The translations under genes were made by a program, and so were the position numbers. Positions 52,030 through 56,600 of a stretch of 64,000 nucleotides of DNA are shown piece after piece. This DNA comes from Collimonas sp. OK242 (GTDB taxonomy: Bacteria; Pseudomonadota; Gammaproteobacteria; Burkholderiales; Burkholderiaceae_D). The notes under the pieces are model-generated. The model made no database searches, was not told the DNA's origin, and saw nothing but the letters and a program-made list of their open reading frames with translations. Each line of letters opens with the position of its first letter. Positions within the stretch are counted from its first letter, which is position 1. The stretch spans positions 211,357 through 275,356 of the forward strand of contig NZ_FNOR01000007.1 in assembly GCF_900107095.1 (NCBI RefSeq), in the 5' to 3' direction.

Positions 52030-52584
52030 TTAGAGCCCATGGCGGACATACTCGATGTCGTCAACAACAACGCCGCGCACCGTGTCGTTGCCAGGCAATA
52101 TGCGTTTCCGCAAGAACCCCGCGCGCTCCAGCACACGGGTCGATGCTTCGTTTCCGAAGGTGACCGTCGCCACCTGCTCCACGATTCCTTCGCGCGACAA
52201 ATGTGCCGCTAATGCCCGAACTGCCTCGGTTGCGTATCCCTGTCCCCAGAACGGCGGAAAAAACAAGTACCCGATGTTGGTCGCGACATTGGCCGAATTG
52301 ATTTCCGCGTCCATCTTGCCCACCCATGCACCGTCCGATCTACGCCGGACCGCCCAGTTGAGATAGACATCCTCGTGGTCGGCAAGCAATCGAGCTGCGG
52401 CGCGAGTCCAGGCATCCTCAAGTGCCGCCACGCTTGCCGGAGGGACGGATGAGATCCAGGTGTAGATTGCCGGATCTTGCATGGACAAGAACAGAAGCTG
52501 TGCATGCTGCGGGCCAATAGGTTCAAGGCATAGGCGCCTACTCTCGATCGCCACGTTAAGTGCGGTGACGTGTGCAGGATTCAT
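52030..52584 (-). CDS. GNAT N-acyltransferase of the RiPP cluster (RimJ/RimL type)
   Basis: 184 aa. RimJ/RimL-like GNAT fold: LCLEPIGPQHAQLLF at the start, IGYLFFPPFWGQGYATEAVRA as the acyl-CoA loop (Q/W-G-Q-G-Y-A pattern), and NEASTRVLERAGFLRKRI at the end. It is the last gene of the operon, coupled to the preceding oxygenase gene by an ATGA overlap. In this context it probably acylates an amino group on the modified peptide, for example ornithine or the N-terminus, but self-immunity by acetylation is also possible. Confidence 0.82.
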   Translation of the reverse strand: MNPAHVTALNVAIESRRLCLEPIGPQHAQLLFLSMQDPAIYTWISSVPPASVAALEDAWTRAAARLLADHEDVYLNWAVRRRSDGAWVGKMDAEINSANVATNIGYLFFPPFWGQGYATEAVRALAAHLSREGIVEQVATVTFGNEASTRVLERAGFLRKRILPGNDTVRGVVVDDIEYVRHGL

Positions 52585-53348
52585 GGCATGCTGCCGCTTT
52601 TCTGAGCAAGGATTTCAGTCCAGGTACGGATCCAGACGTCCCGGCGCGGGGAGTCGCTGAACCGGGCTTCAGCCAGCGCGGCTTCGGCATCCGCGAAACA
52701 ACAGAAATTGCCCGAGATTGCCAATGTCGAAGTTTGATTCTGTACCTGGTGCCACCAATCCGGGGGGAGATAAATGAGGTCGCCAGCCGTCAGAAACGCC
52801 TCGTAGATCTCGCAGTCCGCAACAACCTCGGATGGCGAGACGTCGATGTCGGGCGCGCACAGGCGCCAGATTTTCTCCCCGCGCAACTGCGCGAGCCAGG
52901 TGTGGGTGGAGAAGATGTCCTGGTGCCATGCCGTAGATGTCCCCGCCGGTCCGGCATAGAGCGAGATCCACTCGGCAAAGGGGCCGCCTCGACGCAGCGG
53001 AAACGTGGCGTCGGCCGCAAGGGTCTCGCAACGGCTGTCGCCGAAGCTCGGTTTTATGTAAAAGTCCGTGAGATATATCGATCCGTGCGACGAACTGAAC
53101 ATGTCGGGAGCGGCGAGGTAGTCGATAAAACTCTCGACCGGAATTCGCCCCAAGCGGCCGTCCTCGAAACGGACCATGGGACGAAGTCCTGCCAGCGTCG
53201 TTCGCAGGTGCATATCGGTCCATCTGGAAAATGCTCCCATCCTGCGCGCCGCACCGGCGACGACCACCGGCCTGCCCTTCATGAAGAAGTCCTCGTAGAA
53301 TTCATCCTGATCGGCGATGCATGCGAGTTTTGTATTGTGCGTAGTCAT
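52581..53348 (-). CDS. JmjC/cupin-like Fe(II)/2-oxoglutarate oxygenase 2 of the RiPP cluster
   Basis: 255 aa from ATG 53348. Cupin-fold JmjC core: HxD at 142-144 (WHQDIF) and the distal His at 200 (PPDWWHQV), with YAGPAGTSTAWHQDIFSTHT and GEKIWRLCAPDI strongly like cupin_8 hydroxylases. Probably hydroxylates a residue of the precursor peptide. Start and stop are both part of 4-nt overlaps. The frame continues six codons further upstream but the coupled ATG is preferred. Confidence 0.85.
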   Translation of the reverse strand: MTTHNTKLACIADQDEFYEDFFMKGRPVVVAGAARRMGAFSRWTDMHLRTTLAGLRPMVRFEDGRLGRIPVESFIDYLAAPDMFSSSHGSIYLTDFYIKPSFGDSRCETLAADATFPLRRGGPFAEWISLYAGPAGTSTAWHQDIFSTHTWLAQLRGEKIWRLCAPDIDVSPSEVVADCEIYEAFLTAGDLIYLPPDWWHQVQNQTSTLAISGNFCCFADAEAALAEARFSDSPRRDVWIRTWTEILAQKSGSMP

Positions 53349-54334
53349 GGCAGGCTGGCAGTGCAACCGAGAACGGCGTCAATGGCGGGCGGGAGGATCT
53401 CCTCGATCAGGGTCCCGCCCGCCAGATAGGATTCCAGCGGCTCGGCACGAACCGCTTCGAGCTCGTGCTCAAGCCCCAGACAGGAATAAAAATTGTTCTG
53501 GGTATGGCCTCGGAATTCGTAGTCGACGTGAAACCCGATCGAAGTCAGGTGCTCGGCATCTGTTGGATCCATCGACGGCAAGCCCGCATAAGCGGCAAGC
53601 TGCTCCGCAAGACCTGGCAACCCGGCGACGGCTGTGGGACGAAGCAGAGCAACCAGATGCGCATTCAGCAGCATTGTGAGCATCTGGGCCGGCGCCTCAA
53701 GCGCTAATCGTCCGAGGCGCCCGACTGCGCCAGGGAAGCCATGGTCAAGCCGCTGATTGTCGAGCGGGTTGGCATAGGCGTTGAGCGCCAGGAACAATCT
53801 CGTCGAGCGCTGCCCTTCGACCATGGCGAGCAGCGCCACGTATTGCTCGAAGGCCATGGCGAAGGCCTCGCTGCCAAGCACCACTTCCACCAGCCGCCGC
53901 CCTTGCGGGATGCCTTCCTGTGCGCATGCCGTCTCGTAGAAGATCGCGTGAGCCCCCTCATGAAACGAATAACTTGCAACGCAGATATCCCTGAATAGCG
54001 AGTCAGGCATGCTAAGGTCCGGCCGATCGGCCAGCACCTGCTCGGCCGCAAGCGCAGTTCGGCGGAAAGGGATGGTCCGTGTCCGGAAGATTTCCGTCAG
54101 TTCGAGGATGGGAAACATGGCGTGGATGCCGGCGATCTGAGAGGCAGGCATAAAGATGTAGCCGAAGTCCTTCAACGCGCGCCGCATGTGCGCAAGCGGA
54201 GGTAATCGATTGAGGAGAGCGCCATCGCCCAATGTGTCGGGCAGCTGGAGTTCATGGTGCTCGCGCAGGTGGATGGACATCAAGGCAGCGAGGCGGAACT
54301 CGGGCCCGCTGCCCAGCTCGTCGTTGATGCTCAC
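53345..54334 (-). CDS. HExxH-motif peptide beta-hydroxylase-like enzyme
   Basis: 329 aa, starts with GTG 54334 inside the preceding stop (GTGA). HEGAH at 125-129 and Glu157 (GSEAFAMAFEQ) form the metal site. The length, helical composition and mid-protein HExxH match the HExxH family linked to RiPP clusters, now described as 2-oxoglutarate-dependent peptide beta-hydroxylases rather than proteases. The likely substrate is the 64-aa peptide. Confidence 0.75.
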   Translation of the reverse strand: MSINDELGSGPEFRLAALMSIHLREHHELQLPDTLGDGALLNRLPPLAHMRRALKDFGYIFMPASQIAGIHAMFPILELTEIFRTRTIPFRRTALAAEQVLADRPDLSMPDSLFRDICVASYSFHEGAHAIFYETACAQEGIPQGRRLVEVVLGSEAFAMAFEQYVALLAMVEGQRSTRLFLALNAYANPLDNQRLDHGFPGAVGRLGRLALEAPAQMLTMLLNAHLVALLRPTAVAGLPGLAEQLAAYAGLPSMDPTDAEHLTSIGFHVDYEFRGHTQNNFYSCLGLEHELEAVRAEPLESYLAGGTLIEEILPPAIDAVLGCTASLP

Positions 54335-55476: not shown

Positions 55477-56402
55477 GCGGGCTCCTCGGAAAGGTAGCGA
55501 ACAATGTGCGCGAGTCCGTGAAGGATGAAGCGTCCGGTCAGGCAGTTGGCCGGATCGAGTGCCGGGCTGTACTCGGTCCAGTCAGCGCCCGCCCCCCGCA
55601 GGCCCTTTTCACGGAAAATCGCTAGCACTTCCCCAAGTGCAGAGAGCGTCAGTCCTCCCGGCTCCGGATACTGGACGGCGGGAGCCACCGACGGATCGAA
55701 CGCGTCGGTGTCGACCGTCAGGTACACATCCACTCCAGGAAGCAACGCGTCCCTAAGATCGGAAAGCTTAACGCAGGCCACGCCTTCAGGCATGGGCGGA
55801 ACTCCCCAAGAGAGCCCGCGAATCCCGATTTGCAATACTTTCTCGGCCAATTCCTCCGCTACGATGTAGGAAACGAAAGTCGCATGAGTCGGACGCTCGC
55901 CGCGCTCGATGACGTCAAAGTCGTGGTGTGCATCGAGTTGGACGATTTGCACGCGCCGGCCGGCCCGGGCGAGCCCGCGCAGCACCGGCAGGGTGACCAG
56001 GTGATCGCCTCCAAGCACCAGCGGCCGCTTGCCTTCACGCGCCACCAACGAGATCGCGTGAGTAACGAACTCAAGGTAATCGTCATCCGACTGATTCGGC
56101 CGATATTTCAGGTCGCCAAGATCGCTGATAACCGAGCCCGGAAAAATAATCTCGCGTCGTGCGAGGTCATAGATCGCACCTTGCTTCACACGCAGCACCT
56201 CTGGCGCCGATAGCCGGCGCACGGCTTGCGGCGCCGCAGCACAACCCGCATGCTCCGGCGCGGTGCCGCGATCATACGGCAGCCCGATCACCACCACATG
56301 TCCGCCCGCGCCTTGCTCACAGCCAAATAACGTAGGATAGTCTTTGGAAACAGGGCGCTCCTCATGCTGCCTGGACGGAGAGGAAGTGCCGCCTTCGAGC
56401 AT
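55473..56402 (-). CDS. arginase/agmatinase-fold ureohydrolase, probable peptide arginase
   Basis: 309 aa from ATG 56402, four bases from the precursor stop. Complete dimanganese site: GGDH at 131-134, DAHHDFD at 157-163, DTDAFDP at 231-237. Free-arginine arginases are usual, but the location directly downstream of a small peptide gene in a RiPP-like operon suggests it converts arginines in the peptide to ornithine and urea, as known for OspR-like peptide arginases. GGAAG-like ribosome binding sequence precedes the start. Confidence 0.85.
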   Translation of the reverse strand: MLEGGTSSPSRQHEERPVSKDYPTLFGCEQGAGGHVVVIGLPYDRGTAPEHAGCAAAPQAVRRLSAPEVLRVKQGAIYDLARREIIFPGSVISDLGDLKYRPNQSDDDYLEFVTHAISLVAREGKRPLVLGGDHLVTLPVLRGLARAGRRVQIVQLDAHHDFDVIERGERPTHATFVSYIVAEELAEKVLQIGIRGLSWGVPPMPEGVACVKLSDLRDALLPGVDVYLTVDTDAFDPSVAPAVQYPEPGGLTLSALGEVLAIFREKGLRGAGADWTEYSPALDPANCLTGRFILHGLAHIVRYLSEEPA

Positions 56403-56405
56403 CAA

Positions 56406-56600
56406 CTACTTCCGTTCTATGCCTGCGGGCTGGCCCTTGGGGCGTATCATTACCGTGACGTTACGCAGGTCGTCAGCGTTGAGGAGTTCAATCAGATCAT
56501 CCAGGTTAGCCGGAGCTTTGTGTACCTTCTCGCTCTGGACGATGTTCTTCAACTTTGCGACCGCAGCCTCACGATCAAGATCCTTCTTTGCGATGCTCAT
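56406..56600 (-). CDS. candidate RiPP precursor peptide
   Basis: 64 aa behind an excellent Shine-Dalgarno (AAGGAGGATAAGC before ATG 56600). The N-terminal part is helical and charged (KKDLDREAAVAKLKNIVQ), the middle is an acidic helix (LDDLIELLNADDL), and the C-terminus RNVTVMIRPKGQPAGIERK carries three Arg, two Lys and two Pro. No lanthipeptide or nif11/Nhlp-type leader, no GG cleavage site and no Cys. Arg46, Arg53 and Arg63 are candidate targets of the arginase. It lies first in the operon, typical for a precursor. Confidence 0.8.
   Translation of the reverse strand: MSIAKKDLDREAAVAKLKNIVQSEKVHKAPANLDDLIELLNADDLRNVTVMIRPKGQPAGIERK

Follow-up and report, generated by a model that had tools for sequence, protein, structure and literature searches.

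The operon lies at positions 52030-56600 of a 64,000-nt stretch of contig NZ_FNOR01000007.1 from Collimonas sp. OK242, the whole of which is referred to here as the window. As originally predicted, the ORF listing places six co-directional ORFs on the minus strand, in the order of a 64-aa ORF, a PF00491 ureohydrolase, a JmjC_2 protein (JmjC1), a HExxH protein, a Cupin_8/JmjC protein (JmjC2) and a GNAT protein (Table 1). The chaining of the five enzyme genes by 4-nt overlaps was confirmed at all four junctions, namely arginase/JmjC1 (55473-55476), JmjC1/HExxH (54331-54334), HExxH/JmjC2 (53345-53348, with ATG 53348 preferred as the JmjC2 start over TTG 53366, where the mechanical ORF begins) and JmjC2/GNAT (52581-52584). 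Three nucleotides separate the precursor stop from the probable arginase start (ATG 56402), which lies one codon inside the mechanical ORF opening with TTG 56405.

Table 1. Features of the operon and its upstream region (positions in the window)
Feature	Position	Strand	Evidence and predicted role
Promoter-like site	56743..56770	-	Upstream of precursor; weak, 9/12
Precursor peptide ORF, 64 aa	56406..56600	-	Leader-like motif LIELLNADDLRN, then VTVMIRPKGQPAGIERK; ORF, Shine-Dalgarno, conservation in L003
Arginase-family ureohydrolase PF00491, 309 aa from ATG	55473..56402	-	Pfam E=6.5e-47; predicted Arg-to-Orn on precursor
JmjC1, JmjC_2 oxygenase	54331..55476	-	Pfam E=2.1e-7; C-terminal domain of strands, then three helices
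HExxH protein, unclassified family	53345..54334	-	Candidate hydroxylase or peptidase; model pLDDT 89.1
JmjC2, Cupin_8/JmjC oxygenase	52581..53348	-	Cupin_8 E=4.7e-18, JmjC; HQD...H motif
GNAT acyltransferase PF13302	52030..52584	-	Acetyltransf_3 E=2.8e-24; without counterpart in L003

The strong ribosome binding site ascribed to the 64-aa peptide gene is indeed present as AAGGAGG, 6 nt 5' of the ATG. The GC content at the three codon positions of this ORF is 0.63/0.31/0.66, with positions 1 and 3 resembling the neighbours and position 2 lying below their 0.44-0.53. No family match was obtained at E<=1 in Pfam and NCBIfam, and a database search with the precursor brought back the window's own sequence alone (one of two candidates). 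Shuffled sequence averages 2.2 promoter-like sites where the region has five, and the single site upstream of the precursor is therefore no evidence by itself.

The Pfam scan of ten neighbouring genes across 48071-62382, which did not include every small ORF, found no cyclase, radical SAM enzyme, peptide exporter or known leader peptidase, and no kinase, cyclase or radical SAM enzyme is encoded in the operon, as had been noted. The sole kinase-family protein among the neighbours is HipA, which belongs to a toxin-antitoxin-like pair. Elsewhere in the genome, the two C39 matches fall in open frames that, at 242 and 396 aa, could not accommodate a fused C39 exporter. Other kinds of locus were considered and rejected: relatives of the HExxH protein, the arginase and JmjC1 were found in no viral contigs, those of the HExxH protein and JmjC1 in no plasmids, and none of the six operon proteins gave a PADLOC defence match at E<=0.01.

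A search of 84,980 species genomes for two peptide patterns, bound to miss relatives without these, yielded 84 stretches, one of which was confirmed as a related locus, L003, in Oxalobacteraceae UBA5157. Its genes follow the order small ORF, arginase, JmjC1, HExxH, JmjC2, HlyD and C39 peptidase-ABC exporter, the last two standing where the window has the GNAT gene, and the identities to the window are 59% for the arginase, 55% for JmjC1, 48% for the HExxH protein and 53% for JmjC2. The leader is retained with 53% identity across 32 aa (E=2.6e-6), a similarity score reached by none of 5000 shuffles, and the motif LIE[LI]LNADDLRN is common to both small ORFs. A precursor ORF with a leader-like segment beside modifying enzymes, as expected of a RiPP cluster, was found in both loci, the only two clusters read in genomic context. 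This bears out the RiPP-like operon of the original prediction, including its small ORF, which is conserved in L003. The claimed lack of a transporter and leader peptidase is true of the window operon but does not extend to L003 with its C39 peptidase-ABC exporter.

A run of 128 N interrupts the L003 precursor and, at face value, shifts the reading frame between its flanks, which leaves the C-terminus putative. Beyond the N-run lies MRPKG, preceded by Gly-Gly; when the window precursor was shuffled 200,000 times, [MILV]RPKG arose within the last 20 residues in 12 cases. Gly-Gly and the C39 exporter go together in this pair of loci, the window having neither. Past the N-run, two copies of a 35-nt repeat in different frames were also seen by eye.

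The ureohydrolase belongs to the arginase superfamily, its PF00491 domain scoring 160.8 bits against a gathering score of 22. Alignment with solved arginases and agmatinases revealed the GGDH, DAHHD and DTD motifs, all of which are kept in L003. The protein falls under every NCBIfam cut-off, with agmatinases as the best matches, and the Pfam scan detected PF00491 only, pfam12640 of the OspR/PbsE type being absent. Two further arginase-family matches exist in the window's genome, and an arginase-family gene with ~36% identity to the operon enzyme occurs in this genome and in 12 of 14 other genomes of the genus. Judged by sequence, the operon ureohydrolase is additional to and distinct from the arginase-family gene widespread in the genus.

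The JmjC assignment rests on the domain together with the HxD...H iron triad. By fold, JmjC1 matches YxbC and ribosomal oxygenases, while the nearest solved relatives of JmjC2 by sequence are JMJD6/JMJD5, and the HQD...H motif of JmjC2 is kept in L003. No RiPP recognition domain was detected: profile comparison (hhalign) of the JmjC1 C-terminal domain with PqqD (20 of 26 sequences used) gave a probability of 1.5%, barely above the up to 1.03% of 20 column shuffles. The acyl group foreseen for the peptide is compatible with the GNAT of the window but is not a general feature, as no GNAT match was found in L003 or elsewhere in its genome.

The HExxH protein has no Pfam or NCBIfam family, the stray matches being confined to single members among the 13 of its family at E 0.05 or worse. 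H125, E126, H129, E156, R232 and R275 are invariant in all 13 rows of the family alignment (A1), which gives a peptidase-like HExxH-x26-E pattern. TIGR04267 (mod_HExxH), which we take to be the model of alpha-ketoglutarate HExxH hydroxylases, was matched by none of the 13, and profile comparison with seven TIGR04267 proteins (alignment A2, seven of nine matches, two below the cut-off being omitted) gave 2.5% probability (hhalign, E=0.018) over 55 columns round the motif. All seven carry another residue at the raw position, +31 from the first His, where the window protein has Glu. The label of HExxH hydroxylase is accordingly not supported as it stands, and the protein may be a peptidase or represent a novel family of oxygenases.

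Beyond L003, the HExxH protein was found in 2 of 100 relatives, the window's own genome and that carrying the L003 contig (G035), and in only its own among 399 genomes of the order. With the JmjC1 profile at E<=1e-30, 10 of 392 genomes of the family gave matches, eight of them same-genus copies and the others G035 and the window's own genome; for the phylum the count was 2 of 398, again the window's own and a single same-genus copy. Co-location of HExxH and JmjC1 outside the two loci is suggested for five of the 12 HExxH homologues listed: their longest contig (5688, 29379, 37562, 3715 and 7837) has exactly the length of that of a JmjC1 homologue with at least one source shared, and one such HExxH-JmjC1 pair bears the consecutive names NVS3B20_07900/07910. 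For most of the at least 40 JmjC1 homologues, several of them on contigs >10 kb, the at least 12 HExxH homologues listed contain no partner; as each search scored a part of its candidates, this may reflect search sensitivity or a real absence. The alignment A3 comprised 34 of 40 JmjC1 homologues plus the window and L003, leaving out the near-identical P0014 and, for odd lengths, P0043, P0048, P0049, P0052 and P0053. The same-genus JmjC1 relatives were considered as related clusters and rejected, as they lie away from the other operon genes in 8 of 14 other same-genus genomes; tblastn with all six operon proteins recovered JmjC1 in each of L024-L031, with weak JmjC2 cross-matches in four, and JmjC1 alone in a ninth region (L032, 26% identity).

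A ribosomal peptide is much the best reading of the operon. What is read directly from the DNA comprises the gene order, the 4-nt overlaps, the enzyme families, the preserved metal-ligand motifs and, in a second genome, the core set together with a matching leader and a downstream C39 peptidase-ABC exporter; from these we predict that an arginase-family enzyme devoted to the precursor, along with two JmjC-type oxygenases, probably modifies it after translation to a short linear peptide bearing ornithine and hydroxyl groups. The LIE[LI]LNADDLRN segment would serve as the leader recognised by the enzymes, and the likely target of the arginase is Arg53 of the I-R-P-K-G core, which would become ornithine, since no other arginine beyond the leader motif recurs in both precursors. 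JmjC1 and JmjC2 would hydroxylate the ornithine and/or the adjoining Pro/Lys, in the manner of BipG of biphenomycin biosynthesis, which is described as requiring ornithine, not arginine (PMC12707348). The HExxH protein might act as a third oxygenase or a trimming peptidase, and in the window strain the GNAT could acylate the ornithine or lysine side chain or the new N-terminus. In the second bacterium, the exporter is likely to cut behind Gly-Gly and secrete the core. Against this pathway stands the window itself, with neither exporter nor recognised leader peptidase in the operon and the ten neighbours scanned.

A bolder version, which we regard as speculative and rather unlikely in its entirety, would place these ring-free ribosomal peptides, with their [MI]RPKG core, in a class of their own, made by a PF00491 peptide arginase and a JmjC pair. 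The HExxH protein would then be an oxygenase of a lineage unrelated to known alpha-ketoglutarate HExxH enzymes, with a HExxH-x26-Glu iron site, and the enzymes would between them hydroxylate ornithine, proline and lysine of one tetrapeptide. Should the ribosomal pathway preferred above prove right, ornithine-bearing ribosomal peptides could arise without any ring-forming or class-defining enzyme, and PF00491 arginases, next to those of pfam12640, would form a second lineage of peptide modifiers worth mining. In the HExxH family, which lacks a Pfam or NCBIfam model, one would have a new lineage of non-haem oxygenases or else a new leader peptidase, and the RPKG tetrapeptide common to both precursors, with its three adjoining modifiable side chains, would offer a compact test substrate.

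The strongest competitor, somewhat short of an even chance, keeps the same pathway with two oxygenases only and assigns the trimming or removal of the leader to the HExxH protein, acting as a zinc metallopeptidase. HExxH followed by Glu at such a spacing is of the gluzincin peptidase type, and the invariant Glu 26 residues past the motif, the missing TIGR04267 match and the want of any other recognised leader peptidase in the window all suit this role. A HEXXH-X18-E arrangement is also described for the RiPP peptidase NosP (PMC13039773), whereas several HExxH proteins of published RiPP clusters are reported to be hydroxylases, with proline as the substrate in one case (PMC13060819). Further against a peptidase, the gene is retained in L003 despite the C39 peptidase-exporter, and the invariant R232 and R275 would also suit alpha-ketoglutarate binding. 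In an improbable alternative, the substrate of the ureohydrolase is a free small metabolite, be it agmatine, arginine or a guanidino acid, the target of the JmjC enzymes is a cellular protein, and the small ORF encodes a regulatory or accessory peptide; the agmatinases as best, though sub-threshold, NCBIfam matches and the YxbC-like JmjC1 fold would fit, but the conserved leader and core-like part, the kept gene order and the adjoining exporter of L003 argue against it, as do the two other arginase-family matches already in the genome.

The least probable reading of all, that the operon belongs as a divergent offshoot to the selidamides or to the biphenomycin family and is not a separate variant, draws on the enzymes that it shares with both. 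In biphenomycin clusters (bip/pbs/bpm), ornithine is generated within the precursor by an arginase and hydroxylated by a JmjC enzyme, and a HExxH protein is encoded alongside (PMC12707348, PMC12257519). These differ from the operon in their MNIO, B12 radical SAM cross-linker, TldD protease, UPF0489/pfam12640 arginase and aromatic FRF core, none of which was found here. No LanM, MNIO, rSAM or TldD was detected in the six operon genes, the ten neighbours scanned or the six genes of L003, so the combination of MNIO and B12 radical SAM typical of biphenomycin is missing. The biphenomycin HExxH enzyme belongs to the alpha-ketoglutarate HExxH family, whose TIGR04267 model the operon protein does not match. 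For the selidamide phaeornamide, the described sequence of arginase, Fe/alpha-ketoglutarate hydroxylase and GNAT acylating (hydroxy)ornithine (PMC9505594) is likewise close, in contrast to its NHLP-type precursor, lanthionine synthetase and OspR-like arginase; the operon has no ring-forming enzyme found, another leader, matching no NHLP-type family, a PF00491 arginase unlike the pfam12640 named for OspR and PbsE (PMC12703449), and a GNAT absent from L003.

Partial likenesses extend to other systems. Enteropeptin KgrD, compared by description rather than sequence, is reported as a ribosomal-peptide arginase of the pfam00491 type (PMC12703449), and enteropeptins differ in a thiomorpholine step and an Fe-S methyltransferase. 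The pfl/pos clusters of Pseudomonas combine a precursor, GNAT and HEXXH protein with no protease nearby, in contrast to the operon with a MNIO-nitroreductase and a NHLP leader (PMC12636437), the words arginase and JmjC both being absent from the main text of that paper. Nitrilobacillin (pes) clusters are described as having a HExxH protein in ~75% of cases and a predicted arginase in its place in the rest, together with MNIO and an asparagine-synthetase-like enzyme, JmjC going unmentioned in the available part of that source (PMC13060819). The original statement that the enzyme mix matches no RiPP class is therefore not supported as it stands, since biphenomycin (PMC12707348) and phaeornamide (PMC9505594) come close to this mix, although no compared class matches the whole.

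The six-gene set described in the original prediction, co-directional with 4-nt overlaps and a strong ribosome binding site, was confirmed by ORF reading of the window, as six minus-strand ORFs lie between 56600 and 52030 and AAGGAGG is located 6 nt ahead of the ATG of the 64-aa first ORF, the precursor MSIAKKDLDREAAVAKLKNIVQSEKVHKAPANLDDLIELLNADDLRNVTVMIRPKGQPAGIERK. Its stop lies 3 nt upstream of the presumed ureohydrolase ATG, and all four junctions among the five downstream genes are overlaps of exactly 4 nt. The operon is most likely a leader-guided peptide modification pathway.

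Features of the operon, its surroundings and the loci compared
Feature	Location	Strand	Pfam or content
Precursor ORF	window 56406-56600	minus	
Ureohydrolase	window	minus	PF00491
JmjC1	window 54331-55476	minus	JmjC_2
HExxH protein	window	minus	none
JmjC2	window 52581-53348	minus	Cupin_8/JmjC
GNAT	window	minus	Acetyltransf_3
Three consecutive toxin-antitoxin-like modules, between gyrB and operon	window 48071-51832		TacA1 + GNAT; Xre/MbcA-like + RES; HTH + HipA
Two 35-nt repeats	L003 901-985		VVGG[ED]MRPKGV each, by eye
Radical-SAM-like locus	own genome C54 (L047) 2305-6104		two TIGR04267 HExxH proteins, small ORF
C39 peptidase locus	own genome C17 (L035) 5470-9580		small ORFs 7194-7613 and 8178-8645

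Pfam scanning of ten neighbours revealed toxin-antitoxin-like modules, a SLAC1 channel, an AraC-type regulator, a glycine-zipper protein and one protein without family. Between 44 and 64 kb, the GC content reaches 59.8-63.1% in four 1-kb steps, those covering 52 to 56 kb, and stays at 47.2-59.7% in the remaining sixteen, a pattern that would fit a gained segment without demonstrating one.

Pattern scanning with each species represented by a single genome (84,980 species according to the tool) yielded one relative of the HExxH protein. It lies on contig DHXL01000228.1 (L003), from Oxalobacteraceae bacterium UBA5157, and genome G035 of the whole-genome set has a match at the identical place on an equally long contig. 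L003 carries a small ORF ahead of the shared enzymes, in the order small ORF, PF00491 enzyme, JmjC_2, HExxH, Cupin_8/JmjC, then an HlyD-type protein and, where the contig stops, a protein combining Peptidase_C39 with ABC membrane and ABC ATPase domains. The GNAT had no match in L003 or in the UBA5157 genome (86% complete).

The leader match between the window and L003 outscores 5000 of 5000 shuffles, and when the window precursor was shuffled 200,000 times, [MILV]RPKG fell within the last 20 residues in 12 cases; the precursor protein search returned only the window's own sequence. The L003 ORF reads MKSIDTNCTEKSEINTDKAEKSQVKSLDSLIEILNADDLRN and then enters a run of 128 N, beyond which one frame gives RNVVGGEMRPKGVE and a stop. 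Taken at its literal length, the run breaks the frame between its two sides, and it is probably an assembly gap inside a repeat. The two repeats right after it, one base apart and in different frames, could represent either a repetition of the core or an artefact of assembly. Gly-Gly, described in PMC12636437 as the typical cut site of peptidase-bearing ABC exporters, directly precedes MRPKG in L003 and is absent from the window precursor, and the window has no such exporter. Elsewhere in the genome, a C39 peptidase without ABC domains is adjoined by two small ORFs and an outer-membrane-like protein, all labels except C39 being by sequence reading.

The HExxH and JmjC1 searches, each scoring only the ~8,000 candidates with most words in common, gave 12 proteins at E<=0.001 and 40 at E<=1e-10, respectively. 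For five of the 12, the longest contig is exactly as long as that of a JmjC1 homologue, with at least one source in common, and one pair is consecutively named (NVS3B20_07900 and 07910, Polyangiales MAG). Seven HExxH homologues have longest contigs >3.7 kb. Six of these share their location with JmjC1 (five judged by equal contig size, and P0009, identical to the L003 protein, via L003), and P0004 had no JmjC1 match. Within the two lists, the majority of JmjC1 homologues lack an HExxH partner, which may reflect search sensitivity or be genuine. JmjC_2-like proteins 36-38% identical to JmjC1, found in 8 of 14 other genus genomes (G003-G008, G012, G013; regions L024-L031), sit apart from every other operon gene.

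The ureohydrolase retains the GGDH, DAHxD and DxD motifs; its top NCBIfam models are agmatinases, with scores far under the cut-offs (111.9 bits against 302, and 107.2 against 174.3), and it differs from a separate arginase-family gene (~36% identity) present in its own genome and 12 of 14 other same-genus genomes. The JmjC1 model (pLDDT 91.9) has a fold resembling that of YxbC and of two ribosomal oxygenases, NO66 and YcfD, with H-x-D...H preserved in 36 of 36 alignment rows, while the solved structures nearest to JmjC2 by sequence are JMJD6/JMJD5. For the GNAT, the similarity is to ribosomal-protein-alanine and bleomycin acetyltransferases.

The earlier label of HExxH hydroxylase is not supported as it stands: this protein has no Pfam or NCBIfam family and no alignment outside the motif with seven proteins of the curated mod_HExxH model TIGR04267. 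Among its invariant residues are HExxH, two Arg and a Glu 26 residues past the second His; this Glu lies on the next long helix of the predicted model and may be the third ligand. A proline-hydroxylating HExxH enzyme is on record (PMC13060819). The C54 locus, its radical-SAM-like protein assigned by sequence reading, looks like a separate rSAM/HExxH RiPP cluster.

The arginase would act first on the precursor, followed by the JmjC hydroxylases, acylation only where a GNAT is present and finally release. This order is proposed because published analogues run so: BipG hydroxylates ornithine but not arginine (PMC12707348), and phaeornamide passes from arginase to oxygenase to GNAT (PMC9505594). 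R53, P54 and K55 are the predicted modification sites, as they are conserved.

Among the open-licence PMC titles and abstracts that the literature searches listed, there was no description of such a gene set, and the biphenomycin papers came nearest. The claim that the operon matches no RiPP class holds in part: none of the known classes compared fits it whole, although published analogues exist in biphenomycin and phaeornamide.
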